A stretch of DNA of 64,000 nucleotides from Halostagnicola larsenii XH-48 (GTDB lineage: Archaea; Halobacteriota; Halobacteria; Halobacteriales; Natrialbaceae), in assembly GCF_000517625.1 (NCBI RefSeq), contig NZ_CP007055.1:682001-746000 (forward strand). The letters are read 5' to 3'. The notes under the pieces were generated by a model. It was not told the origin of the DNA and made no database searches. It saw only the letters and a program-made list of their open reading frames with translations. Positions 12,509 through 25,450 of this stretch are shown here, piece by piece. The first letter of the stretch is position 1, and each line of letters opens with the position of its first letter. A program made the translations under genes and the position numbers.

Positions 12509-13321
12509 ATGCTCACGTTCATCGGTCTCGGTCTCTACGACGAACGCTCGATCACCGTCGAGGGGCGGGACGCGCTTCGGGACGCAGACCGCGTCTTCGC
12601 GGAGTTTTACACCAGTACGCTTCTCGGCACGACGGTCGAGGAACTCGAGGACCACCACGACGTCTCGATCGAGGTCCGCGACCGCGCGGGCGTCGAGCAA
12701 CGACCCGATGACATCATAGAGGCCGCCGAGACCGAATCGGTCGCCTTCCTGACCGCGGGCGATACGATGATCTCGACGACTCACGTCGATCTCAGACTCC
12801 GGGCACACGACCGCGGTATCGAGACACGGATTATCCACGGCGTGACGGCCCAGACGGCTACAAGCGCCCTGACTGGGCTCCAGAACTACCGCTTCGGAAC
12901 CGCGACCACGCTCCCGTTCCCGTACGCCCACGGAGCCGACGGGCTTCCGGCGAGCGTGACGAACACGATCGACGCGAACCGCGAGGCGGGCAGCCACACC
13001 GTCGTCTACCTCGACATCAAAGTCGACAACGAGGCTGCGACCCAGCGCGTCGAGGACGACGAGGCGGTGGCCGAGTACATGACCGCCGACGTCGGCGCGG
13101 AGCTGCTCGCCGAGGAGTACCCCGACCTCGTCGGCGTCGTCGTCGCTCGAGCGGGAAGTCCCGATCCGCTCGTCGAAGCCGGAACGATGACCGAGCTCGC
13201 GGAGCGGGAGTTCGGCGACCCGCTCCACCTGCTCGTGATCCCCGGGGACTGTCACCTGCTCGAGGCCGACGCGCTGGTCGAACTCGCCGGTGCGGATCGC
13301 GAAGCGTTGGATATCGTCTAA
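12509..13321 (+). CDS. dphB: Diphthine synthase
   Basis: A 270-residue SAM-dependent tetrapyrrole-methylase-fold enzyme. It begins MLTFIGLGLYDERSITVEG, then has DADRVFAEFYTS and the SAM-binding TAGDTMISTTHVDL and HGVTAQTATSALTGLQNYRFG blocks that are characteristic of archaeal DphB. It methylates the modified histidine of elongation factor aEF-2 during diphthamide synthesis. The length is typical of the family. It is monocistronic and convergent with leuB, with a hairpin between them. Confidence 0.96.
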   Translation: MLTFIGLGLYDERSITVEGRDALRDADRVFAEFYTSTLLGTTVEELEDHHDVSIEVRDRAGVEQRPDDIIEAAETESVAFLTAGDTMISTTHVDLRLRAHDRGIETRIIHGVTAQTATSALTGLQNYRFGTATTLPFPYAHGADGLPASVTNTIDANREAGSHTVVYLDIKVDNEAATQRVEDDEAVAEYMTADVGAELLAEEYPDLVGVVVARAGSPDPLVEAGTMTELAEREFGDPLHLLVIPGDCHLLEADALVELAGADREALDIV

Positions 13322-13375
13322 ATCGCCGGTCGCCTAAACCGCTCGTCGTCCGAATCCCTCGTCGCCTGAACTACT

Positions 13376-13392
13376 CGGCGTTTGAAACGCCG
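13376..13392. terminator. Hairpin between convergent dphB and leuB
   Basis: CGGCGTTTGAAACGCCG is a perfect inverted repeat (6-bp stem CGGCGT/ACGCCG with a 5-nt loop, or 8 bp with a 1-nt centre) located 55 nt after the dphB stop and 84 nt after the leuB stop. It lacks a long T run on either side, so termination in both directions is plausible but not certain. Confidence 0.4.
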
Positions 13393-13475
13393 GGACGAAC
13401 GCGCTCGAGCGAACCCAACCCTGTTCTTGCGAGTGAAGACCCTCGAGAATTCGAAGAAAAGCACTGGACGCGGAT

Positions 13476-14456
13476 TTAGAGGTTGTCGATGATCGCCGTC
13501 GTCACGTCCTCAGTCGAGGCTTCGCCGCCGAGATCGGGCGTCCGCGGCCCGTTCTCGAGGGTCGTCTCGACCGCGTTCTGAACCGCCGCAGCCTCCTCGT
13601 CGTGGCCGAGATACTCGAGCAACATCGCGGCGGAGATGATCGTCGCGGCCGGGTTCGCGACGCCCTCGCCGGCGATGTCCGGTGCGGTTCCGTGGACAGG
13701 TTCGAACAGCCCGCGCTCCGGGCCGATGTTGGCCGAGGGGAGCAATCCGAGTCCGCCGACCAGCCCCGCGGCCAGATCCGAGAGCACGTCGCCCGCGAGG
13801 TTCGGACAGACGACGACGTCGAACTGCTCGGGGTCGAGACAGACCTTCGTCGCGAACGCGTCCATCAGCACCTCGTCGGTGTCGACGCCCTGCTCGTCGG
13901 CCACCGACTCGATCGTGTCCCGGAAGACGCCATCGGTTTCGCGCATGACGTTCGCCTTGTGGGCGATCGTAAAGCCGTCGTGATCGCCGTCTTCGACGTA
14001 CTCGCAGGCGAACTCGCCGAGGTCTCTCGAGGCCGACTGCGTGACGACCCGCGTGAGCGTCGCAACGTCTTCCGAGAGCCGATCCTCGTGGCCGGCGTAG
14101 ACGCCTTCGGTGTTCTCGCGGAGGAAGACCAGATCCGTCTCCGGGCGCACGGCGTCGATACCCGGATAGGCTTTCGCCGGGCGAATGTTCACGAACGAAT
14201 CGACCGCCTCTCGGAGCGGGAGAATAACGTCCGCAGCCGTCTCGCCGGCCGCGCCGAACAGCGTCGCGTCCGCCGACGCCGCCAGTTCGTAGGTCTCCTC
14301 GGGCAACGCCTCGCCCGTAATCTCCTTGACGCGGTCGCCCGCGTCCGCCTCGTGGAACTCGAAGTCGATCTCGAGGGACTCGAGCACCTCGACTGCCGCC
14401 GGGGTTACTTCCTGCCCGATTCCGTCGCCGGGGATGACAGCGATCTCGTGAGTCAT
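13476..14456 (-). CDS. leuB: 3-isopropylmalate dehydrogenase
   Basis: A 326-residue decarboxylating dehydrogenase of the isocitrate/isopropylmalate family. It has [13 protein letters not shown] at the N-terminus, the [15 protein letters not shown] substrate-binding block, the [20 protein letters not shown] block, and the metal-binding stretch around [17 protein letters not shown] and [26 protein letters not shown]. It catalyses the third dedicated step of leucine synthesis (NAD-dependent). The ATG at 14456 is chosen because [12 protein letters not shown] matches the family N-terminus. It is the last gene of the branched-chain cluster, 163 nt after leuD. Confidence 0.95.
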
Positions 14457-14619
14457 GCTTTTCCATCTCGAGAGGACTGAAATGAGCGTGTCGATACCGG
14501 GATGGCTGGAGTCCTGACTGGCGGCAGTGTTCCAGTTCGCGTCGCTGCTGGACGTGGGGTCCGCTCGAGATGTCGATGAACGAAACGAGAATCTCAACGA
14601 CGGGTCCGAAACGCCGGTT

Positions 14620-15249
14620 CTACGACGAGATGGCCGAATCGTCCACGTAGGGCAGTTCGTCTGCCTTTTTCTGGACCTCGCCGGCGTTCGATTTCATCAG
14701 CGCCGTCGTATCCCAGATGCCGTCGACCAGCGCCTTCCGCTGGGCGTCGTCGACGGTGACGTCGATCCTCTCGTCGCCGTAGGTAACCGTCTCGTCTTCG
14801 ACGTCGACCTCGATCTCTCCGTCGGGGTTGTCGTCGACCCAGGCCTGCAGTTCCTGGATCGTCTCGGTGTCCGCGGTGACGGTCGGAATGCCGAGCGCCA
14901 GACAGTTGCCGGCGAAAATCTCGGCGAAGCTCTCGCCGATGATCGCGTCGATCCCCCAGCGCATCAGCGCCTGGGGTGCGTGCTCTCTCGAGGAGCCACA
15001 GCCGAAGTTGCTGTTGACGACCATCACCGAGGAGTCCTGGTAGCGCTCCTCGTTGAACGGGTGGTCCTTCTGGTTGTCGTCCTCGTCGAACCGCAGGTCG
15101 AAGAACGCGAACTCGCCCAGGCCGTCGAAGGTGACGACCTTCATGAATCGGGCGGGAATGATCTGGTCAGTGTCGATGTCGTTGCCCTGAATCGGGACGC
15201 CGGATCCGGAAGCGTACTTGACTTCCGGAATGTCGACATCGTCGCTCAT
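14620..15249 (-). CDS. leuD: 3-isopropylmalate dehydratase small subunit
   Basis: A 209-residue aconitase-swivel subunit. It has the [16 protein letters not shown] motif and the [15 protein letters not shown] block with substrate-binding Ser-Arg. With LeuC it isomerises 2- to 3-isopropylmalate, and probably citramalate in the isoleucine branch. Its start overlaps the end of leuC (ATG at 15247-15249 within the leuC stop region), consistent with translational coupling of the heterodimer. Confidence 0.95.
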
Positions 15250-16667
15250 GCGGTCGACACCTCCTTCAGTTCGCGCACGTCAGTAACCTCTCCGGTGATC
15301 GCCGCCGCGGCGACCATCCGCGGGTTCATCAGGACGGTGCGGCCGTCCTTGCTTCCCTGCCGGCCGACGAAGTTCCGATTCGAGGAGGAGGCACAGGCCT
15401 CGTCGCCCTCGAGTTGGTCCTCGTTCATGCCCAGACACATCGAACAGCCGGCGTTTCGCCACTCGAAGCCGGCTTCCTCGTAGATGTCCTTGAGGCCCTC
15501 TTTCTCCGCCGTCTCCTGTACGCGCTGACTGCCGGGGACGACCAGCGCGCGAACGTCGTCGTCGACCTGTCGGCCCTCGACGATCTCGGCACCGCGTCGG
15601 AGGTCGGGCAGTCGGGCGTTCGTACACGAGCCGAGGAAGGCGACGTCGATGTCGTAGCCGTCCATCGTCTCGCCCGGCTCGACGCGCATGTGTTCTTGGG
15701 CGCGTTCTGCCGTGTCGGCTTTGTCCGCGGGAAGGTCCTCCGGCGCGGGGATCGGCTCCGAAATCCCGATTCCCTGGCCGGGGGTCGTTCCCCAGGTGAC
15801 GACCGGCTCGAGCTCCGAGCCGTCGATGGTGACGACGTCGTCGTACTCGGCGTCGTCGTCGCTCGAGATCGACTCCCAGTAGGGTTTCAGTTCCTCGAAC
15901 TTCTCGGGGTTCTCCTGGAAGTAATCGGTCTCCTCGAGCCACTCGTAGGTGGTCTCGTCGGGGTTGACGTAGCCCGCGCGAGCGCCGCCCTCGATGGACA
16001 TGTTACAGATCGACATCCGACCCTCCATGCCGAGGCTCTCGATGGCTTCGCCGGCGTACTCGTAGACGTAGCCGACGCCGCCTTCGGTGCCCAGCTGACT
16101 GATGATCTCGAGGATGATGTCTTTGGCCTCGACGCCGTCGTCGAGTTCACCCGTAATCTCGATCTTGCGGACTTTCTGTTTCTCCATCGCGATGGTCCCC
16201 GTCGCGAGGACGTCGCGGATCTGTGAGGTCCCGATACCAAACGCCAGCGCGCCGAACGCGCCGTGGGTGCTCGTATGGGAGTCCCCGCAGACGATGGTCT
16301 TGCCGGGTTGGGTGAGTCCCTGCTCCGGCCCGATGACGTGGACGATCCCCTGATCGCCCGTCGTCGGATCCGAGAACTCGATGCCCGCGTCGCGGACGTT
16401 CTGCTCGAGTTCGGACATCATTTCCTCGGCCGAGTCCTCCTTGTAGGGACGGGACTGGTCGGCCGTCGGAACGATGTGATCGACCGTCGCGTGGGTCAGT
16501 TCGGGGTAGGCGACCTCGAGGTCTCGCTCCTCGAGCATGCCGAAGGCCTGCGGACTGGTGACCTCGTGAATGAGGTGCAATCCGACGAACAGTTGATCCT
16601 GTCCGGTCGGTAGCGTCGTAACTTTGTGTCGATCCCACACCTTGTCGTAGAGTGTTCCCTCGCTCAT
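15246..16667 (-). CDS. leuC: 3-isopropylmalate dehydratase large subunit
   Basis: A 473-residue aconitase-family subunit. Fe-S ligand regions are visible as [16 protein letters not shown] and [14 protein letters not shown], with the first cluster/His region [19 protein letters not shown]. It binds the [4Fe-4S] cluster used for dehydration and rehydration of isopropylmalate. Its ATG overlaps the stop of the preceding small gene (ATGA at 16664-16667), and its stop overlaps leuD, so the three genes are tightly coupled. Confidence 0.96.
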
Positions 16668-17002
16668 CTGTCGTCCTCGATGCCGTCGGTTCGTACCCGC
16701 CCCCGTTCGAAAACCCGATTCGTTCGGTTCGTCTCCGTCGCTTCGGTCGGCGGCGTGTGACTGACGGTTTTCATCGTCCGCTCGTCCGTCGTCGCTCGAT
16801 CCGCGTGTTCGTCGGTCGATTCGACGGCCTCCGATCGGCCGCCGTCGGCCGCAACGACGGGGCCGCGACTGAACAGGTGCCCAGTCGATTCGTCGGTGTA
16901 GGGGTTGGTGTGGCTAACCTCGGCCATAACCTTCCCTGAACCGGACGCCGACTCAGTTGTCACACCGGTATCGGACGCCGTCGATTCTGTCTCTCGTGTC
17001 AT
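16664..17002 (-). CDS. Conserved small protein between ilvC and leuC (112 aa)
   Basis: A 112-residue Thr/Glu/Ser-rich protein with a recognisable core, [16 protein letters not shown] followed by [15 protein letters not shown], flanked by low-complexity acidic or Thr-rich tails. It contains no catalytic motif. It starts 18 nt after the ilvC stop and ends in an ATGA overlap with leuC. I believe similar short proteins occur at this position in other haloarchaeal ilv-leu clusters, but that is from memory. The coupling suggests a structural or regulatory accessory role for LeuC, which is inference only. Confidence 0.65.
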
Positions 17003-17019
17003 CTGTATTCGATCGTCGA

Positions 17020-18072
17020 TTAGTCCGCCTGGACGCGCGTTTTCTCGTCCTCGTCTTCTGTCTCTTCTCCCTCGCCTTCCCACGCGAAGAGGGCGCGGAG
17101 CCGCTCGCCGACCTCCTCGATTTCGTGGTTCTTCTCGGCCTGGTTCAACTGCGTGTAGACCGGCCGGTTGGCCTGGTTCTCCGCGACCCACTCGGTCGCG
17201 AACTCGCCGTTTTGAACCTGCTCGAGCACTTCCTCCATGTTGGCTCGAGCGGTGTCGTCGATGATCTCGTCGCCGCGGGTGAGCCCGCCGTACTCGGCGG
17301 TGTCGGAGACCGAATCCCACATCGCGCCGAGGCCGCCCTCGTACATCAGGTCGACGATGAGCTTCATCTCGTTCATGCACTCGAAGTAGGCCATCTCCTC
17401 GCTGTAGCCGGCGTCGACGAGCGTCTCGTAGCCGACCTTGATCAGCTCGGCGATACCGCCACAGAGGACGGCCTGCTCGCCGAAGAGGTCGGTTTCGGTC
17501 TCCTCGCGGAACGTCGTTTCGACGACGCCCGCTCGAGCGCAGCCGATCCCCTTCGCGTACGCGAGTGCGCGTTCCTTCGCGTCGCCGGTCGTGTCCTGGT
17601 AGACTGCGAGCAGTCCGGGGGTTCCCTCGCCGCGCTCGTAGTTGCGCCGAACCAGGTGGCCCGGCGATTTGGGCGCGATCATCGTCACGTCGACGTGTTC
17701 TGGCGGCTGGATCTGGTTGTAGTGGATGTTAAATCCGTGGGCGAACTGGAGCGTGTCGCCTTCCTCAAGGTGCGGTTCGATCTCCTCGTAGACCGCCGGC
17801 TGGACCGTATCAGGAACCAGCACGGACACGATGTCGGCCTGCTTCGCCGCCTCGGCGGCGGTCGCGACCTCGAGTCCTTCCGCGCGTGCCGGCTCTCGCG
17901 AGGAGGAATTTTCGCGAAGGCCGACGATCACGTCGACCCCACTCTCGTGGAGGTTCAGCGCGTGGGCGTGGCCCTGACTGCCGTAGCCGAGCACGGCGAC
18001 GGTCGAGTTTGTGAGTTGCGATTCGTCTACGTCTTCTTCGTAATAGATTTCGGTGGTAAATTCGTCAGTCAT
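17020..18072 (-). CDS. ilvC: Ketol-acid reductoisomerase
   Basis: A 350-residue class I (short-form) KARI. It has a nucleotide-binding [17 protein letters not shown] at the N-terminus, the [19 protein letters not shown] loop, and C-terminal knotted-domain metal and substrate residues in [14 protein letters not shown] and [19 protein letters not shown]. It converts acetolactate or acetohydroxybutyrate to the dihydroxy acids of valine, leucine and isoleucine synthesis using NAD(P)H and Mg2+. It overlaps ilvN by 8 nt. The acidic C-terminal tail is a halophile trait. Confidence 0.97.
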
Positions 18073-18721
18073 CGTCTGCGTGTGGTTGTTGTGGGTTCGT
18101 TTGCTGTGCCGATTCCTCCGGTGGTGTTTCGCGAGCGGTATCGGTCATCCCTCGCGCTAACGCCGTCGTCCCGGTTCGGGAAATCTCGCGAATGCCGAAC
18201 TGGCTGAACGCTTCGATCGCCGCGGCGATCTTCTGATCGCTGCCGGTGATCTCGATGGTCGCCGTCTCGGGCGAGGCGTCGACGGTTTTGCCGCCGTACA
18301 TCTCCGCGACGGCGGCGACCTGATCGGGACGCATCGCGTTGACTTTCACGAGCGCGAGTTCGCGCCGCATCGCGTCGGGCTCGAGTTCGCGAACCGAGAC
18401 GACCGGGACGAGCTTCCGGAGTTGTTTCTTGATCTGTTCGATGCCGGGATCGGGTTCCTCGACGACGAGGGTGATCCGCGCTCGGTCCTCGTCGTCGGTG
18501 GGGCCGACCGTCAGGCTCTCGATGTTGAACTGCCGCCTCGAGAACAGCCCCGAGACGTCCGAGAGCACGCCGGGTTCGTGCTCGACGAGCGTCGAGATCA
18601 CAGTTCGGCGCGGTTCGTGTTCGGCCTCCACTTCGGGGTCGACGCGGATCCCCTGTGCGGTGCGTCGACCAGCCGGCCTTGGGCGCTCGTCTGGAGCTGG
18701 CCCATCGAGTCCGCCGGTCAT
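18065..18721 (-). CDS. ilvN: Acetolactate synthase regulatory (small) subunit
   Basis: A 218-residue ACT-domain protein. The ACT core runs from about residue 39 ([25 protein letters not shown]) through [23 protein letters not shown], followed by the conserved C-terminal domain ([28 protein letters not shown]). It binds valine and controls the catalytic subunit IlvB. Its ATG overlaps the ilvB stop (18718-18721). The extended Thr/Gln/His-rich C-terminal tail is poorly conserved. Confidence 0.95.
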
Positions 18722-20538
18722 AGCTGGTCCTCCGCCAGCGCGAACTGGCCGTTGTCACCGCCGCTTGGAACCATCGGGTAGACGTTCGCCTGCGGATCGA
18801 TATGCGCGTCGATAACGGACGGCCCGTCGTAGGAAAGCGCCTCCTCGATGGTGTCTGCGACCTCGTCGTACTCGTCGATCCGGAAGCCTCTCGCACCGAA
18901 CGCTTCCGCGAGTTTGTCGAACTCGGGCATCCAGTTGTACTCGGAGGCGGAATGGCGACCCTCGAAGAAGGCGTCCTGCCACTGTCGAACCATCCCGATG
19001 TACTCGTTGTTGAGCACCACGACGGTGATATCGAGGTTCTCACGAACTGCGACCGAAAGTCCCTGTAACGTCATCAGGAACGAGCCGTCGCCGTCGATGC
19101 AGACGACCTCTTGATCGTCGTCGGCGGCGATGCGCGCGCCGATGGCCGACGGCAGGCCGTAGCCCATCGCACCGAGTCCGTGACTCGAGACCCACGTGCG
19201 CGGTTCGGTGTAGGTCCAGTACTGGCAGGCCCACATCTGGTGTTGGCCGACGCCGGTGGTCACGACCGCGCGGTCGCTGGTCGCCTCGTCGAGCGCTTCG
19301 ACGACGAACTCCGGCTGGACCGGCCGATCCTCCGGGGCGTCGTAGGCCATCGAGTAGTCGGATTTCCACTGCTGGCACTGGGCTCGCCACTTCGTCGCCT
19401 GCGGCGAGGTCTCCATCTCCTCGGACAGCTGGGTGACGACCGTCTCTGCGTCGCCGATCAGCGGATAGTCCGCGTGGATGTTCTTCGAAATCTCCGCCGG
19501 ATCGATATCGATGTGGATCAGTTCGGCGTCGGGCGCGAACGTCTCGATGCCGCCGGTCAGGCGGTCGTCGAAGCGCGTTCCGATGCCGATCAGAGTGTCA
19601 CAGTGAGTGATCGCCATGTTGGCGTAGCCGGTGCCGTGCATGCCGGCCATCTCCATCGATAGCTCGTGATCTTCCGGGAACGAGCCGATGCCCGGCATCG
19701 TCGTGATGACCGGGATCTCGTGTTCGATCGCGAACTCGCGACAGGCCTCGCTGGCCTCGCCCTTGATGACGCCGCCGCCGAGTAGCAAGGCGGGCTTGCT
19801 CGAGTTCTCGATCCGTCGTGCGGCTTGCTCGACGATTTCGGGATCGGCTTGCTCTTGGACCTCGTAGGTGTCCGGGACTTTCGGCTCGTCGGGTTCGCGG
19901 TTGGTGTCTGCGTTCGTCACGTCCTTCGGGAGGTCGACCAGGGTCGGTCCCGGCCGCCCTTCCCGTGCGAGCGCGAACGCTTCGCTCACGTCCGAGCCGA
20001 CCGTGTCCGGATCGTTCGCGAACGTGTTGTCCTTGGTCACTGGCGTCGTGACGCCGGTGGTGTCGGTCTCTTGGAACGCGTCGTTGCCGACGAAATCTCG
20101 AGCGACCTGTCCCGTCAGCGCGACCATTGGGTCCGAATCCATATCGGCGTCCGCGATTCCCGTGACGAGGTTCGTCGCACCCGGTCCCGAGGTCGCCAGG
20201 CAGATGCCCGGTTCGCCCGAGACGATGCCGTAGGCGTCCGCCGCGTGGGCGGCCCCCTGTTCGTGGGCCATCGTCACGTGGTAGATATCCGAATCGTACA
20301 GCGCGTCGTAGACGGGCATGATCGCGCCGCCTTGCACGCCGAAGGCGTACTCGACGCCCGCGTTCTCGAGGGCTCGGATAACCGACTGTGCGCCCGTCGC
20401 GACGGGCGCTTGCTCGATATCGTCCTCGGTCGCTTGCGTCGACGTGTCCGCCGCCGTCGATTCGTCTGCGTGCTGTTCCCCTGTTTCTGGATCGTCCGTT
20501 TCGGTCGGTGATGTGATCGAGGAAGCGCGTTCGCTCAT
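18718..20538 (-). CDS. ilvB: Acetolactate synthase catalytic (large) subunit
   Basis: A 606-residue thiamine-diphosphate enzyme. It has an N-terminal PYR domain with the catalytic Glu in MAHEQGAAHAADAYG, a central FAD-binding region, and the PP domain with the TPP motif CIDGDGSFLMTLQGL ... VVLNNEYIGMVRQW. It condenses pyruvate with pyruvate or 2-ketobutyrate at the start of Val/Leu/Ile synthesis. A Shine-Dalgarno GGGAGGA lies just upstream of the ATG, so this gene has a true 5' leader of roughly 190 nt, containing a possible leader peptide. The N-terminal 45 residues are an acidic halophilic extension. Confidence 0.97.
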   Translation of the reverse strand: MSERASSITSPTETDDPETGEQHADESTAADTSTQATEDDIEQAPVATGAQSVIRALENAGVEYAFGVQGGAIMPVYDALYDSDIYHVTMAHEQGAAHAADAYGIVSGEPGICLATSGPGATNLVTGIADADMDSDPMVALTGQVARDFVGNDAFQETDTTGVTTPVTKDNTFANDPDTVGSDVSEAFALAREGRPGPTLVDLPKDVTNADTNREPDEPKVPDTYEVQEQADPEIVEQAARRIENSSKPALLLGGGVIKGEASEACREFAIEHEIPVITTMPGIGSFPEDHELSMEMAGMHGTGYANMAITHCDTLIGIGTRFDDRLTGGIETFAPDAELIHIDIDPAEISKNIHADYPLIGDAETVVTQLSEEMETSPQATKWRAQCQQWKSDYSMAYDAPEDRPVQPEFVVEALDEATSDRAVVTTGVGQHQMWACQYWTYTEPRTWVSSHGLGAMGYGLPSAIGARIAADDDQEVVCIDGDGSFLMTLQGLSVAVRENLDITVVVLNNEYIGMVRQWQDAFFEGRHSASEYNWMPEFDKLAEAFGARGFRIDEYDEVADTIEEALSYDGPSVIDAHIDPQANVYPMVPSGGDNGQFALAEDQL

Positions 20539-20646
20539 CTGGATCCTCCCGCCGCGTGGTGGCGATCAGTTGTCATGTAGTGTGTCATCTGCTGTCTGAC
20601 TGGTGGCTGTGTGATCGATGCGAGGCCGGAACGAGAAGGAGGTGTG

Positions 20647-20664
20647 AGGGGCTAGACGGCCCCT
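20647..20664 (-). promoter_or_regulatory. Hairpin overlapping the stop codon of the ilv leader ORF
   Basis: Minus-strand AGGGGC-CGTCTA-GCCCCT: a 6-bp GC stem with a 6-nt loop. The loop and first stem bases contain the TAG stop (20652-20654) of the 26-codon leader ORF. It lies about 110 nt before the ilvB start codon. A ribosome stalled at the leader's end would cover or melt it. There is no strong T run after it, so it may act on translation or on mRNA stability rather than as a terminator. Confidence 0.4.
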
Positions 20665-20732
20665 ACAATAGCGAACGGAGCGAACACGCCGGTGTCGACC
20701 GCGTCGGCCGACCGTTCTGCGTGTGACCTCAT
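20652..20732 (-). CDS. Putative 26-aa leader peptide of the ilvB operon
   Basis: A 26-codon ORF starting MRSHAERSADAVDTG and ending FAPFAIVGAV, stop TAG. Its ATG lies about 29 nt downstream of a TTATGA TATA element (20759-20764), the same element and spacing as at carA, so the predicted transcript would start essentially on this ATG and be translated leaderlessly. The C-terminal end is rich in Ala, Val and Ile, and the stop is embedded in a hairpin. This is the layout of an attenuation or translation-coupling leader for a branched-chain amino-acid operon. Neither expression nor mechanism is proven. Confidence 0.45.
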   Translation of the reverse strand: MRSHAERSADAVDTGVFAPFAIVGAV

Positions 20733-20840
20733 TACCTCGACTGTAGCTACCTCGAGTGTCATAACTCTTGTGCGTCTTGTTCGACCGCGTTGGTCCCCGT
20801 AGCCGGTGCTCGGGAACGCTGGCAAACGGGGAGAACATCC

Positions 20841-22071
20841 CTAGGCGCGCACCTCCTCTTTGTCCTGTGTGCGCTCGACGTCCGCTTCCTCCGCGAAGCG
20901 CTCTAAGTCGGTGACGGTGACGCGTCGTTTTTCCGCGCCGTAGTCTTTGACCCGTCGAGTGACCGCGCGAACCTGTTCGTCCGTGGGTTCGAACCCGCGT
21001 TCGTGCAGGCGCTCGCGGACGGAGTGCGTGCCGGTGTGTTTGCCCATGACCAGTTTGCGTTCGGCTCCGACCATTTCGGGGGTCATGACGCCCGGTTCGA
21101 ACGTATCGGAGTTTTCGATTACGCCCGCAGCGTGGATGCCGCTCTCGTGGGAGAAGGCGTTGTCGCCGACGACCGGCTTGTTGCCCGGTGTCTCCATGCC
21201 GCTTTTGTCCTCGACGATGTCGGAGAGTTCCGTGATCCGCGTGGTGTCGATACCGGTATCGACCTGGTAGAGGGATTCGACGGACATGACGAACTCCTCG
21301 TAGGCGGCGTTGCCCGCCCGCTCTCCGATGGAGTTGACCGATACCTGAGCCTGATCGGCTCCGGCTTCGATACCGGCGAGCGCGTTCGCGGTCGCCAAAC
21401 CGAAGTCGTCGTGGGTGTGGACATCAACGCGCGCGTCGGTGTGTGCACACACCTTCTCGATCATCGCCTGGAATCTGCTGGGTGTGGCGACGCCGCAGGT
21501 GTCGGGAATGTTGATCCAGTCGGTTCCTGCCTCGGTGACCGCTTCGATCACGTCGATCAGGAACGCCTCGTCGGTTCGCGTCGCGTCCATCGGGGAGAAC
21601 ATACAGGTTGCTCCCGCGTCGGTGACGCGTTCGACCGACTCGACTGCGTTCTGTACGACCTGGTCTCGTGTGGCGTGCATCGAATCTTCGATCTGGACGT
21701 CGCTTGTGCTCACGAAGACGTGAACCATCTCGACGCCGGAATCTAGCGCTGCTTCGATATCCGCATCGACGACGCGGGCTAACCCGCAGGTCGTCGTGCT
21801 GGTTGCCGAAGCAATATCCCGGACTGCCTCGAACTCCGCGTCGGAGTTGACAGGGAACCCAGCTTCGATCACGTGGGTGCCCATCTCGTCTAGAATCGAG
21901 GCGATCTGGCGCTTGTCGTCGTAAGAGAACGACGTTCCAGGGGACTGTTCGCCGTCCCGGAGCGTCGTATCGAAGACTCGAGCAGTTTCGATTTCTTCAG
22001 TGGAATCTAACGTGCCCTGGAAGAACTCGACCGCCCTGACTGGTATCAGAGCCGTTGTCTGGTGAAGACAT
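20841..22071 (-). CDS. leuA: 2-isopropylmalate synthase / citramalate synthase (LeuA family), 5' reading frame broken or recoded
   Basis: A DRE-TIM metallolyase. From 21974 down the frame reads FDTTLRDGEQSPGTSF, DMGTHVIEAGFPVNS-type and VHTHDDFGLATANALAG with GNKPVVGDNAFSHESGIHAAG, all LeuA/CimA signatures. It condenses acetyl-CoA with 2-ketoisovalerate (or pyruvate). The first in-frame ATG (21884) would cut off the essential FDTTLRDG strand. The open frame continues upstream to 22106 (..PVRAVEFFQGTLDSTEE..) but contains no ATG, GTG or TTG there. The ATG that fits the TATA box (22071) is in another frame and stops after 24 codons (21997). A +1 shift, a frameshift mutation or error, or non-AUG initiation (CTG at 22049) is needed. 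It is the first gene of the cluster. Confidence 0.8.
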
Positions 22072-22097
22072 TGTATCCAATTCGACGTGCGACGACG

Positions 22098-22106
22098 TAT
22101 ATAAAA
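22098..22106 (-). promoter_or_regulatory. TATA box of leuA
   Basis: TTTTATATA on the minus strand, centred about 31 nt before the ATG at 22071, so transcription should begin within a few bases of that ATG. A short palindrome ATCAC-TTC-GTGAT (22147-22159) lies about 45 nt further upstream and could be a regulator site. Confidence 0.6.
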
Positions 22107-22582
22107 CTACCGCTGTTACTGCTTTTCCGGTGTCGTCTGTGAGCGAATCACTTCGTGATGAGCCCAAAATCGCAAGACATCAACGTCCTAATATTCATCA
22201 CCATCTCCCTATATGATACGGTATTTCTGTGCGGACTCGACCGAGGCGTTCTCGAGAGCGAGTATAATTACGGTTTATTTCCTTTGGATTAAATTTGTGA
22301 GCGCTCGCGCGCGATTCCGGAATTAACGTTCGGGCAATAACGCTTACTGCAGACGGGTAGAATAAGACGTTCACATCCCTTTACTCGAATATGGTTGTCT
22401 ATCTACTATTCCTTCGATCATTTCACGATCTATTCCAGCTAAGTTATTGTTCGAGTATGTTCTGCTGAGTTTCGTATTGGTCGACGCCCCGCGATTCGTG
22501 TACCGCTCTGAGACACGGGATGAGTGAGATGGCCAGTGAGCGTGTCAGCATTTTAGTGCCCCTCGTGGTAGCTCTCCGTGCA
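22107..22582. other. AT-rich divergent intergenic region between leuA and the ferritin-like gene
   Basis: Markedly more AT-rich than the rest of the window, especially about 22190-22460. It holds the upstream part of the leuA promoter region, the 22147-22159 palindrome, and presumably the promoter of the 22583 gene. I find no credible ORF or RNA gene in it. Confidence 0.5.
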
Positions 22583-23038
22583 ATGTCATCCGACGAAGTC
22601 ACAGCCCTGCTCAGGGAAGCGTACCTCGACGAACTCGAGACGGTGATGAATTACCTGACGAACGCCATCGTGCTCGATGGCGTCCACGCCGAGGAAGTCA
22701 AAACGAGCCTCGAGGAGGACGTCGACGAGGAACTCGAGCACGCGCGGTTGCTCGGCCAGCGGTTGAAACAACTCGATCAGTCACCGCCCGGCTCCGAGCA
22801 GTTCGACGCCCAGCAGTCCTCGCTGCAGCCGCCGGACGACACGACGGACGTCCAGTCGGTCATCGACGGCGTGCTCGATGCCGAAGATGACGCCATCGAA
22901 ACGTACCGATCGCTGCTCGAGGCGGCTCGAGAGGCTGACGATCCGGTGACCGAAGACGTCGCCGTCACGATTCTGACCGACGAGGAGGCCCACCATTCGG
23001 AGTTCCGCGGATTCGAAAAGGAGTTTCCGATGGACTGA
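22583..23038 (+). CDS. Ferritin-like four-helix protein
   Basis: A 151-residue all-alpha acidic protein. The helices carry the carboxylate/His pattern of ferritin-like di-iron proteins: EAYLDELETVMNYLTNA, then EELEHARLLGQRL (E-x-x-H), a linker, DDAIETYRSLLEAAR and a final DEEAHHSEFRGFEKEF. It is related to bacterioferritin/Dps-type proteins and may store iron or handle peroxide; catalytic activity is unproven. The ATG at 22583 starts directly at helix 1. An upstream in-frame ATG at 22520 would add a hydrophobic 21-residue extension that I consider non-coding. Confidence 0.75.
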   Translation: MSSDEVTALLREAYLDELETVMNYLTNAIVLDGVHAEEVKTSLEEDVDEELEHARLLGQRLKQLDQSPPGSEQFDAQQSSLQPPDDTTDVQSVIDGVLDAEDDAIETYRSLLEAAREADDPVTEDVAVTILTDEEAHHSEFRGFEKEFPMD

Positions 23039-23170
23039 GTCGATCGCGAGACCAGATTTGATGGGCGTCTGGAACCGCGTCTCTCGAGGCCGTCCTGTTC
23101 GCCGCCGCGAGTCGCGTCGTGAAACCAGTTGTGGGGAACGTTTTTCTCGTCGCGCTTCGACCCAGACCAC

Positions 23171-23464
23171 ATGAGCGATTTCGATCTCGACCTGATGGCG
23201 GTCGAGGACCACATGGACGAGGAGTTCGAACTCGAGGGAAGCATCGTACTCGGCGTACTCGACGGCAGCACTGACCCGGATACGTGGCTCGAGGCGATCT
23301 CGAGCGGTAACGTGCTTGTTCTTCGGGGTGAGGGAGACATTAACGAACTCGCCTCCGGATTCGCGAGAGACGTCAAAGAATCCGGCGGAAATCTGGTTCA
23401 CTTTCGCGGGTTCTTGATCGTGACTCCTCCCGGCATCGATGTCGACACGAGTCGACTCGGGTGA
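23171..23464 (+). CDS. Conserved haloarchaeal protein, DUF5779-like (97 aa)
   Basis: A 97-residue acidic protein with a hydrophobic beta/alpha core: SIVLGVLDGSTDPDTWLEAI, NVLVLRGEGDINELASGFA, and LVHFRGFLIVTPPGIDVDT. It resembles the haloarchaeal DUF5779 family by recall of its layout. There are no catalytic motifs or membrane segments. The ATG at 23171 gives a compact N-terminus. It is monocistronic. Confidence 0.7.
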   Translation: MSDFDLDLMAVEDHMDEEFELEGSIVLGVLDGSTDPDTWLEAISSGNVLVLRGEGDINELASGFARDVKESGGNLVHFRGFLIVTPPGIDVDTSRLG

Positions 23465-23701
23465 GCACCTCGACCGATACTGTGTCAGATTCAGGATAAT
23501 AGTGGATTACCTCTACGAATCACGATCTGTTAATTCCGTCTGTTGTTCGTGCCTATAATTCACACGCTGGCCGGGAATCTCGATCACCGAACGGTTATCA
23601 TCTCGTTCTCTCAGGGACTGTAATCCTATTGGGGGACGAACCATTTCGTTTGGTTAGTTTGCCAGAATGTATTTACGACGTGGGTCAGTCTTCACAGATG
23701 A

Positions 23702-24688
23702 ATGTCGTTTGATACGCACGAGGATACCTCCGACGTAGGTGATATTACCGACGATATAGACACTGACATCGATACGGTCGACCGAACGGATATCAGTACG
23801 AACACCGACCACGAAGCGTCCGCTAAAATGGAATCCGCGGTCGATAAACTGAGCCGGAGTACGACAGAAATCGGCGACCGACTCGAGGACATCCACGACG
23901 AGGCTACTTCCCAGTACGATGCGAACATGGAGGTCGCAAACGAGGCGTCGAACCTCTCGGCGTCGGTCGAAGAGATCGCCTCGTCGTCCGAGGAGGTTGC
24001 GGCCGCGAGCGAGAAGGCTCAGGATCTCGCCGAGACGGGCCAGGAGTCCGCGACTGACCTCTCGAACGCGATGGCGGATATTCGCAGTGCCGCAGACGTG
24101 GTCGCAGAAGATGTCAGGGCGATCCGACGAAGTGCAGAGGAGATCGACAAGGTGGTCGAAGTCATCAACGACATCGCCGACCAGACGAATATTCTGGCGA
24201 TCAACGCCTCGATCGAGGCCGCTGGTGCGGACGCCAACGGCGATCGGTTCGGCGTCGTCGCGTCGGAGGTAAAGTCGTTGGCGGAGGATTCACAGACTCG
24301 TGCGGCCGAAATCGAGGGGATGATCGAAGACGTACAAGAGAACACGGGGACGGCCGTCGAGAACCTCGGTGCGAACGACGAGCGCATCGAAGAGGGGATC
24401 GAGTCGGTCGATCAGGCGATCGAGGTCCTCGACGAGATTCACGAAACGGTCGACGAAGTCTCGGAGGGAATCGCCCAGGTTGCAGATGCGACCGATCAGC
24501 AGGCGGCGAGCACGGAGGAAGTCGCGAGCATGGCCGATATAACCGTCAAAAGTGCCGAAACGATCGCTAACGAGACGCGCGAAATCGCCACCGAAGTGCA
24601 GACCCAAACTACTCAGATCGAAGACATTACACAGACGTTCGAACAGCTCGAGGACGACTTCGCTCCGAACGCGAATCCGAACGTCTAA
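23702..24688 (+). CDS. Soluble methyl-accepting chemotaxis-type transducer
   Basis: A 328-residue acidic coiled coil without membrane segments. Residues 1-40 are an Asp/Thr-rich low-complexity tail. Residues about 60-320 form the long antiparallel helices of an MCP signalling domain, whose hairpin tip is INDIADQTNILAINASIEAAG ... FGVVASEVKSLAEDS (about residues 155-195). Gln/Glu pairs in EEIASSSEEVAAASE and QQAASTEEVASM are probable methylation sites. It would signal to CheA/CheW in the cytoplasm, but it has no recognisable sensor domain, so the input is unknown. A TATA-like GTATTTACG lies about 28 nt before the ATG. Confidence 0.88.
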   Translation: MSFDTHEDTSDVGDITDDIDTDIDTVDRTDISTNTDHEASAKMESAVDKLSRSTTEIGDRLEDIHDEATSQYDANMEVANEASNLSASVEEIASSSEEVAAASEKAQDLAETGQESATDLSNAMADIRSAADVVAEDVRAIRRSAEEIDKVVEVINDIADQTNILAINASIEAAGADANGDRFGVVASEVKSLAEDSQTRAAEIEGMIEDVQENTGTAVENLGANDERIEEGIESVDQAIEVLDEIHETVDEVSEGIAQVADATDQQAASTEEVASMADITVKSAETIANETREIATEVQTQTTQIEDITQTFEQLEDDFAPNANPNV

Positions 24689-24745
24689 ATCGACTTTTCT
24701 CGGCGGCAGCCGACCCGTATCACGACGCTCCGTTCGCGTCCACTG

Positions 24746-25450
24746 TCAGGAATTTTCGGACGGGGCAAACGTCAGATGATGTCCGTCGAAGTCACGAGCG
24801 ACCGCTGTCTCGGCGTCGCCCTCGCCACGGAACTCGAGGCGTGCGACGCGGTCGGCGATCGCTTCCCCTGTGGCTTTCGGATCTTCCGTTTCGAAGCCCA
24901 GATCGACGTGGACGCCGCCGCGAGCGTCCGCGATACCGAGGTGGGGCTCCCACAGCTCGAGCGCGATCGGTCCGTCCATTCGGACCCGCGTTCGGCGGTC
25001 GCCGCGGTCGACGGTTTCGAATCCCAACTCGGCGTACAGCGACTCCGCGCGCTCGAGCGATTCGACCTCGAGAACGACTTCGAAGATGCCGTCGATGCCT
25101 GGACCATCGACGTCGGATTGCCCGAGTTCGACGCAGTTTCCGTCCGGATCGTAGAGGTACAGCGATCTCGTAGACCCGAACTGGGCCTCCTCGAGGTCGT
25201 ACTCGGCCTCGAGTCGGTCCCACCAGTCGTCGTAGGTGTCCGCCGGAATCGACAGCGCGTAGTGGGTGTGAAGGCCGCCACGCGGAACAGCCGTCGGCCG
25301 GCGAATACGGAGGTCGCTTTTCCCGGCTTCGATCGCGAGTTCTCCGTCCCGCTCGCTGCGAACGGTCATCTCGAGCGTATCCTCGTAGAATTTTCGTGCG
25401 CTGGCGAGCGATTTCGCCTCGAGTCCGAGCCAGGCGAGGCCGGTCAACAT
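24746..25450 (-). CDS. VOC-superfamily (glyoxalase/dioxygenase-like) protein
   Basis: A 234-residue protein made of two vicinal-oxygen-chelate modules. The first has SLASARKFYEDTLEM, HTHYALSIPADTYDDWWDRL and SLYLYDPDGNCVEL; the second has VVLEVESLERAESLYAELGFE and ends in DFDGHHLTFAP. The metal-ligand positions of the family (His near the start of a module, Glu in the PDGNxxEL strand) are only partly visible, so activity may be a dioxygenase, glyoxalase or resistance function. The ATG at 25450 is chosen because MLTGLAWLGLEAKSL opens the first module. Confidence 0.82.
   Translation of the reverse strand: MLTGLAWLGLEAKSLASARKFYEDTLEMTVRSERDGELAIEAGKSDLRIRRPTAVPRGGLHTHYALSIPADTYDDWWDRLEAEYDLEEAQFGSTRSLYLYDPDGNCVELGQSDVDGPGIDGIFEVVLEVESLERAESLYAELGFETVDRGDRRTRVRMDGPIALELWEPHLGIADARGGVHVDLGFETEDPKATGEAIADRVARLEFRGEGDAETAVARDFDGHHLTFAPSENS

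Follow-up and report, generated by a model that had tools for sequence, protein, structure and literature searches.

Leader locus upstream of ilvB

Between leuA and ilvB on the minus strand of the 64-kb stretch of DNA analyzed here (the window), a short open reading frame (ORF) runs into a GC hairpin, which raises the question of whether it acts as the sensor of a leader-peptide attenuator for the genes downstream. Leader-peptide attenuation is textbook bacterial regulation, and we know of no established archaeal case. The original prediction, made from this locus alone, named a TATA element, TTATGA, upstream of an ATG, a 26-codon ORF ending in FAPFAIVGAV, a TAG embedded in a 6-bp GC hairpin, and an ilvB gene with its own Shine-Dalgarno sequence about 110 nt further on. 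Every one of these features was recovered (Table 1). The TATA-like TTATGA lies at 20764 to 20759 and is preceded by the AA of a BRE (20769 to 20768), the A of the ATG (20732) is located 32 nt downstream of its first T, the TAG occupies 20654 to 20652, and ilvB starts 113 nt past the leader stop. The order along the strand is thus leuA (stop at 20841), BRE/TATA, leader ORF, hairpin, and ilvB. Mutants of Haloferax volcanii in ilvB1 (HVO_1508) and ilvC require Val, Leu, and Ile (PMC4300041), so the operon would be the right target for such control.

Table 1. Features of the leader locus and of the downstream genes in the window
Feature	Position	Strand	Basis
BRE/TATA promoter of the leader transcript (CAAGAGTTATGA)	20759..20769	-	Sequence and conserved spacing across loci
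Leader ORF, 26 codons, MRSHAERSADAVDTGVFAPFAIVGAV followed by the stop, predicted leaderless	20652..20732	-	Sequence and conservation of frame and start
Putative control codons Ile-Val (ATT GTA), adjoining the hairpin	20664..20669	-	Codon conservation, rarity, substitution pattern
GC hairpin AGGGGC-CGTCTA-GCCCCT (arms 20664-20659 and 20652-20647, loop CGTCTA) with the TAG stop inside	20647..20664	-	Sequence, MFE, covariation
G-free C/U tract with T cluster (TTCTC, 20637-20633), candidate termination site	20633..20651	-	Base profile
Shine-Dalgarno sequence GGAGG of ilvB	20545..20549	-	Sequence
ilvB, acetolactate synthase large subunit, first gene of the putatively controlled operon	18718..20538	-	
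Operon continuation, presumably co-transcribed	14620..18721	-	Pfam
ilvN	18065..18721	-	Pfam
ilvC	17020..18072	-	Pfam
leuC	15246..16667	-	Pfam
leuD	14620..15249	-	Pfam

A scan of both strands revealed no second case of a leaderless ORF ending in a hairpin with a G-poor tail in the 64-kb window. The pattern GTAGGGG..CCCC occurs at 17 genomic sites, compared to 19 for a reversed control pattern, which corresponds to chance level, and the fold of the 212-nt leader RNA showed no excess of stability over shuffled sequences (z = 0.33). By itself, the window locus is therefore weak evidence, and it is the comparison across loci that lifts the predicted element far beyond chance. Between TATA and ATG, a CTCGAG and a CTAC are partly conserved (-23 to -20 and -14 to -11; window 20755-20740), possibly as a further promoter or regulator element.

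Conservation of the leader across Halobacteria

A first sample comprised 80 haloarchaeal ilvB loci, one of which ends before the leader, leaving 79 intact. The window ilvB is 94 to 98% identical to the ilvB genes of L049 and L047 and groups with Halostagnicola. A short ORF of the same design was found upstream of ilvB in all 79 intact loci, ending in Ile-Val-Gly-Ala or Ile-Val-Gly-Val, with one Ile-Ile-Gly-Ala; the leader of one locus (L063) has no ATG and would start at a GTG. In a second sample of 80 further ilvB regions drawn class-wide, the leader was present in 77, with the strict motif in 72 and a variant in five (MVGA, LVLVGA, VVVGA, IVGPA with a rebuilt hairpin, and IRV with another hairpin). 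The three class-wide loci in which no leader was found are L156 and the deep-branching L177 and L178. Along with the second copy L182 and L187, they form a group of ilvB loci lacking a recognizable leader, which counts against the attenuator reading. Over the 79 intact loci, the promoter is marked by AA at -37/-36 (frequency, 0.90) and TTAT at -32 to -29 (0.87 to 0.94) relative to the ATG.

For analysis of the reading frame, the promoter was placed by BRE/TATA score and the first ATG downstream was taken, so that no ATG was chosen to fit. This ATG was in frame with the Ile-Val codons in 149 of 152 dereplicated loci, compared to an expected one third, and no stop intervened in 148 of the 149; six loci beyond the 152 had no ATG. 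The in-frame ORFs have 20 distinct lengths, from 14 to 37 codons, which means that each change in length preserved the frame. TATA and ATG are spaced 32 nt apart in 112 of the 149 loci, as in a leaderless haloarchaeal message, pointing to a leaderless start in this strain as well. Taken together, the conserved frame and start and the promoter spacing predict that the short ORF between promoter and operon is translated.

In the peptide body, no purifying selection was detected at the codon level (pN/pS of 0.95, equal to that of other frames). It is thus the frame and the end that matter, and the product is no small protein with a conventional function. Loss of the ORF in relatives had been named as the observation that would speak against the original prediction; instead, Halobacteria as a class have kept the ORF with its Ile-Val end as well as the hairpin and the leaderless promoter. 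The description of the evidence as suggestive was correct but, given this comparison, understated. Nearly all haloarchaea possess such a leader and very probably use it to sense amino acid shortage through the translating ribosome.

Rare Ile and Val codons adjoin the hairpin

Across the ilvB loci, the ORF ends in the pattern NNT-ATT-GTA-GGGG..CCCC, encoding Ile-Val-Gly. GTA directly precedes GGG in 79 of 80 loci, although it accounts for only 0.5% of the Val codons in the ilvB genes themselves. Likewise, the preceding Ile codon is ATT in 73 of 80 loci (ATC or ATA in the other seven), with ATT accounting for 6.2% of Ile codons in ilvB genes. At the two codons adjoining the hairpin, the combined frequency of Ile, Val, and Leu reaches 99 to 100%, up from about 10% at a distance of twelve codons. 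Substitutions at the Val position, seen in 5 of 127 leaders, are all to Ile, and those at the Ile position are to Val, Leu, or, in one case, Met.

The peptide had been described as enriched in Val and Ile near its end. A conserved Ile-Val at the hairpin bears this out, but the putative signal lies in where two or three codons sit relative to the hairpin and in how rare they are, rather than in a long run. That the control codons number only two or three counts against the attenuator reading. Furthermore, the third base before ATT is a T in 77 of 80 loci (window codon 20672-20670), with an amino acid that varies among Arg, Ile, Gly, Val, and Ala. This T reflects what appears to be a nucleotide constraint, which the codon model leaves unexplained.

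Codon content follows the downstream gene

A covariance model built on the 44-nt core of the element found it in 57 of 59 genomes and detected a second site in many of them. In the window's own genome, this second site is located on contig 1 (2259949-2259992, minus strand), and the gene behind it is valS, encoding valyl-tRNA synthetase (NF009687 and TIGR00422, above cut-off). Endings of valS leaders include AVFVGAP, AVSVRVGAS (GTA TCC GTA CGT GTA), PPVVGAV, and VPVVGAP. Val is present in all 26 valS leaders, always with GTA against the hairpin, and Ile in none of the 26 over the six codons before Gly. Leaders of this type were detected in the window's family, f7, and part of f3, but in none of f2, f4, f6, f8, and f9. 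In the window's family, the stretch CGTTTCGACGGATGTATTGT is conserved about 20 to 40 nt past the valS hairpin (L194-L211). Scans with about 85% sensitivity on known cases gave no such leader for ileS (29 genomes) or leuS (7 genomes), and none was found by scan for trpC and trpD (29 genomes each).

In five genomes, a second ilvB copy is preceded by a leader that lacks Val and has Ile-Ile-Gly at its end (IIGIIGIIGAPQ in L109, SIIAIIAIIGVS in L117, SIIGASY in L180, AIIGAPQ in L184, and AIIGAAQ in L185). The three such copies with full genes form one clade with L072 (support, 100/100), so this paralog class is single in origin and counts as one evolutionary event, retained since. In one of these genomes (Natronomonas aquatica, G219), the leader of the primary ilvB (L110) reads SGMVGA, with Val kept and Ile lost. 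In the predicted leaders, codon content thus tracks the gene: Ile and Val before ilvB, Ile only before the second ilvB paralog, and Val only before valS. This match between codons and gene is the strength of the case.

The Ile-only ilvB paralog is followed by a gene for an ACT-domain subunit of 127 to 131 amino acids (L190:5587-5982, L189:7929-8312, and L192:4143-4526) that is devoid of the ALS_ss_C domain of normal IlvN. This arrangement suggests that the acetolactate synthase encoded here is a distinct isozyme controlled by isoleucine.

Hairpin and pyrimidine-rich tail

The stop codon lies in or beside a GC hairpin across the leader loci. Homologous hairpins have a mean MFE of -12.1 kcal/mol, compared to -1.6 to -4.9 kcal/mol for neighboring stretches of equal length. 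The closing pair covaries, being C-G in 95 loci, T-A in 11, and C-A in one (Fisher test, 2e-9, uncorrected for descent). A compensatory stem, GTAGGGCC/GGCCCTAC, is present in L165, and a rebuilt stem, GTAGGGCC/GGCCC, in L165 and in the valS leader of the window genome. A formal covariation test on one loop class (A2) gave a weak signal because the core stem hardly varies; the evidence for covariation comes from other loop classes.

Past the hairpin, the positional base profile shows 2 to 5% G in the first 15 nt, compared to 20 to 30% further on, and 40% T at +11 to +15. The longest T run averages 2.5 within 35 nt, so that a true poly-U run is absent. By regular-expression counts of T tracts, the first 20 nt past the hairpin were no different from the next 20; the positional profile is the better evidence. 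The T cluster is short (TTCTC in the window) and lies 11 to 15 nt from the hairpin, unlike in bacterial intrinsic terminators, which counts against the attenuator reading. Mapped intergenic termination sites of H. volcanii have a T stretch ending in C, and one hairpin tested in this species terminated 59% of transcripts (PMC7237163). The tail resembles this motif and would therefore fit a moderate haloarchaeal terminator; hairpin and tail together are also similar to the hairpin tested in H. volcanii.

No antiterminator was found: in the 56 leaders folded, the 5' arm pairs within its own hairpin with a probability of 0.99 and upstream with a probability of 0.01. Since the 5' arm has no alternative upstream partner, a trp-type switch is unsupported, and direct masking of a single hairpin becomes likely. 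Of the original proposal of translation-dependent attenuation, the general idea is thus supported by conservation and by the gene-matched codons, but the antiterminator of ilvL and trpL is missing.

Proposed mode of action and alternatives

An amino acid-responsive attenuator of some kind is very likely to reside in this leader, and the ORF is probably the sensor of such an attenuator for the ilvBNC-leuCD operon. As to its exact mode, we lean toward transcription termination controlled by direct masking, which appears reasonably probable. Transcription would begin at the ATG or within a few nucleotides of it. The ribosome would trail RNA polymerase for about 23 codons and then reach the rare Ile and Val codons against the GC hairpin; with Ile or Val in the A site, it would cover the next 10 to 15 nt, i.e., the GGGGC arm. 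Under a shortage of charged Ile- or Val-tRNA, the ribosome would stall at these codons and cover the 5' arm, the hairpin would be blocked, and polymerase would enter ilvB. If charged tRNA is plentiful, the ribosome would arrive at the stop in the loop and release, whereupon the hairpin would close behind the polymerase crossing the C/U tract and transcription would stop. Stalling, termination, and the response to Ile and Val are what we infer from the sequence comparison. For haloarchaea in general, it seems likely that branched-chain amino acid synthesis and valS are controlled by codon-sensing attenuation, with leaderless peptides, a ribosome masking a single hairpin, and the archaeal termination machinery deciding the outcome.

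The same leader might instead act posttranscriptionally, with the ribosome at Ile-Val deciding whether the mRNA is cleaved or degraded or whether the ilvB start is accessible. In keeping with this, ilvB has its own Shine-Dalgarno sequence, and aCPSF1/FttA terminates archaeal transcription by RNA cleavage (PMC7515710, PMC8716108), so that cleavage and termination are hard to tell apart by sequence. We nevertheless regard this alternative as unlikely: the leader stop and ilvB are separated by anything from about 50 to more than 350 nt and no partner is conserved, an argument against the ilvB start being controlled directly, and the C/U tail resembles the mapped haloarchaeal termination motif.

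A further alternative to tRNA sensing by a masking ribosome is nascent-peptide arrest, in which a chain ending in (I/V)VGA would stall in the exit tunnel upon binding of an effector, as in TnaC, and the peptide rather than tRNA charging would be sensed. The near invariance of IVG[AV] in ilvB leaders would suit such an arrest. We consider it improbable since the peptide body is free of amino acid constraint, the residues directly preceding Ile-Val vary freely, the key residues follow the downstream gene in changing to Ile-Ile, Val-Val, Phe-Val, or Arg-Val, and the rare synonymous codons are retained. Even less probable is a DNA-binding regulator that uses the palindrome as its operator, with the ORF being incidental, although the inverted repeat GTAGGGGC..GCCCC(TAC) is common to ilvB and valS, and the conserved T before ATT is unaccounted for by an amino acid. 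An operator would not call for a frame held over 20 ORF lengths, an in-frame stop codon at varied spacings, or the coordinated GTA-to-ATT change in the Ile-only class; moreover, conservation is asymmetric, with GTA kept and the opposite TAC full in only 40 of 126 loci. Both nascent-chain arrest and a DNA operator fit codon switching and frame conservation poorly. A chance ORF or an ordinary small protein, compatible with the unremarkable fold of the window sequence alone, has a negligible probability in view of the class-wide conservation, which includes the frame, and of a body without protein-level constraint.

Relation to known systems

The trpL, ilvL, ivbL, and leuL leaders of Escherichia coli switch between an antiterminator and a terminator, and ilvL and ivbL carry long runs of control codons. 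The haloarchaeal leaders share with this group control codons for products of the operon, a stop near a hairpin, and a presumed dependence on ribosome position. Unlike in trpL and ilvL, the 5' arm has no predicted alternative partner, and the codons touch the terminator-like hairpin itself. Assignment to the trp/ilvL type was rejected, as there are no mutually exclusive antiterminator and terminator structures, and the element would be a variant of leader-peptide attenuation outside that type. In the E. coli pyrBI and ampC leaders, a ribosome close behind the polymerase blocks the terminator hairpin, in response to UTP level or growth rate. The direct blocking proposed here is similar, except that a specific charged tRNA would be sensed.

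In T-boxes of bacterial aminoacyl-tRNA synthetase genes, the RNA itself binds tRNA, and translation plays no part. As with a T-box, a synthetase gene and biosynthesis genes of one amino acid would share one sensor of tRNA charging. A T-box as such was rejected, since neither it nor any other Rfam family matches the element. Searches against Rfam gave no match in window positions 13000-25000, and in L194, L190, L120, and L205 gave only an eL15 leader away from the element and one sub-threshold match. The former is the eL15-Euryarchaeota ribosomal protein leader (RF03144) at L190:8079-8129 (plus strand), scoring above the gathering threshold.

Leaders of actinobacterial ilvB genes (Corynebacterium, Mycobacterium, and Streptomyces) described by Seliverstov et al. 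in 2005 (PMC1262725) are likewise short ORFs with Ile, Val, or Leu codons overlapping a hairpin ahead of ilvBNC-type operons. Their hairpin is a terminator with a poly-U run behind it, and they have runs of control codons, whereas the haloarchaeal leaders have two or three codons and a C/U tail with a short T cluster, in addition to a leaderless archaeal promoter and a matching valS leader. Codon replacement in a similar ilvB leader of Streptomyces coelicolor was without effect (PMC1262725), which calls for caution in the haloarchaeal case and counts against the attenuator reading. The view that attenuation is not an established archaeal mechanism agrees with our search of the open-access literature, in which no archaeal example of leader-peptide attenuation was found.

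If the proposal holds, the leaders would represent in archaea what leader-peptide attenuation is in bacteria, with a codon set adapted to each gene. This would also imply that archaeal translation trails transcription closely enough for regulation, in a group with genetics (H. volcanii), and would provide a natural codon-defined reporter of transcription-translation coupling and archaeal termination. Because codons and genes match in ilvB, its paralog, and valS, the proposal can be put to a direct test.

Start region of the neighboring leuA

In the adjacent leuA, a leucine/isoleucine biosynthesis gene, the leaderless ATG (22071) opens a short frame, MSSPDNGSDTSQGGRVLPGHVRFH followed by a stop (window 22071-21997, minus strand). 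A literature search gave no published account of a leuA frameshift. The ATG frame is +1 out of frame with the enzyme (VEFFQGTL at 22031) in 70 of 71 haloarchaeal loci with leuA upstream of ilvB (L001-L078), and an ATG, GTG, or TTG in the leuA frame near the start is absent in most loci. The start region is thus a candidate for a programmed +1 ribosomal frameshift. At the junction, GG..G[GA]TCGAGTTCTTC.AGGGCAC is invariant, synonymous sites included, and the zero frame reads CGA GTT CTT CCA.
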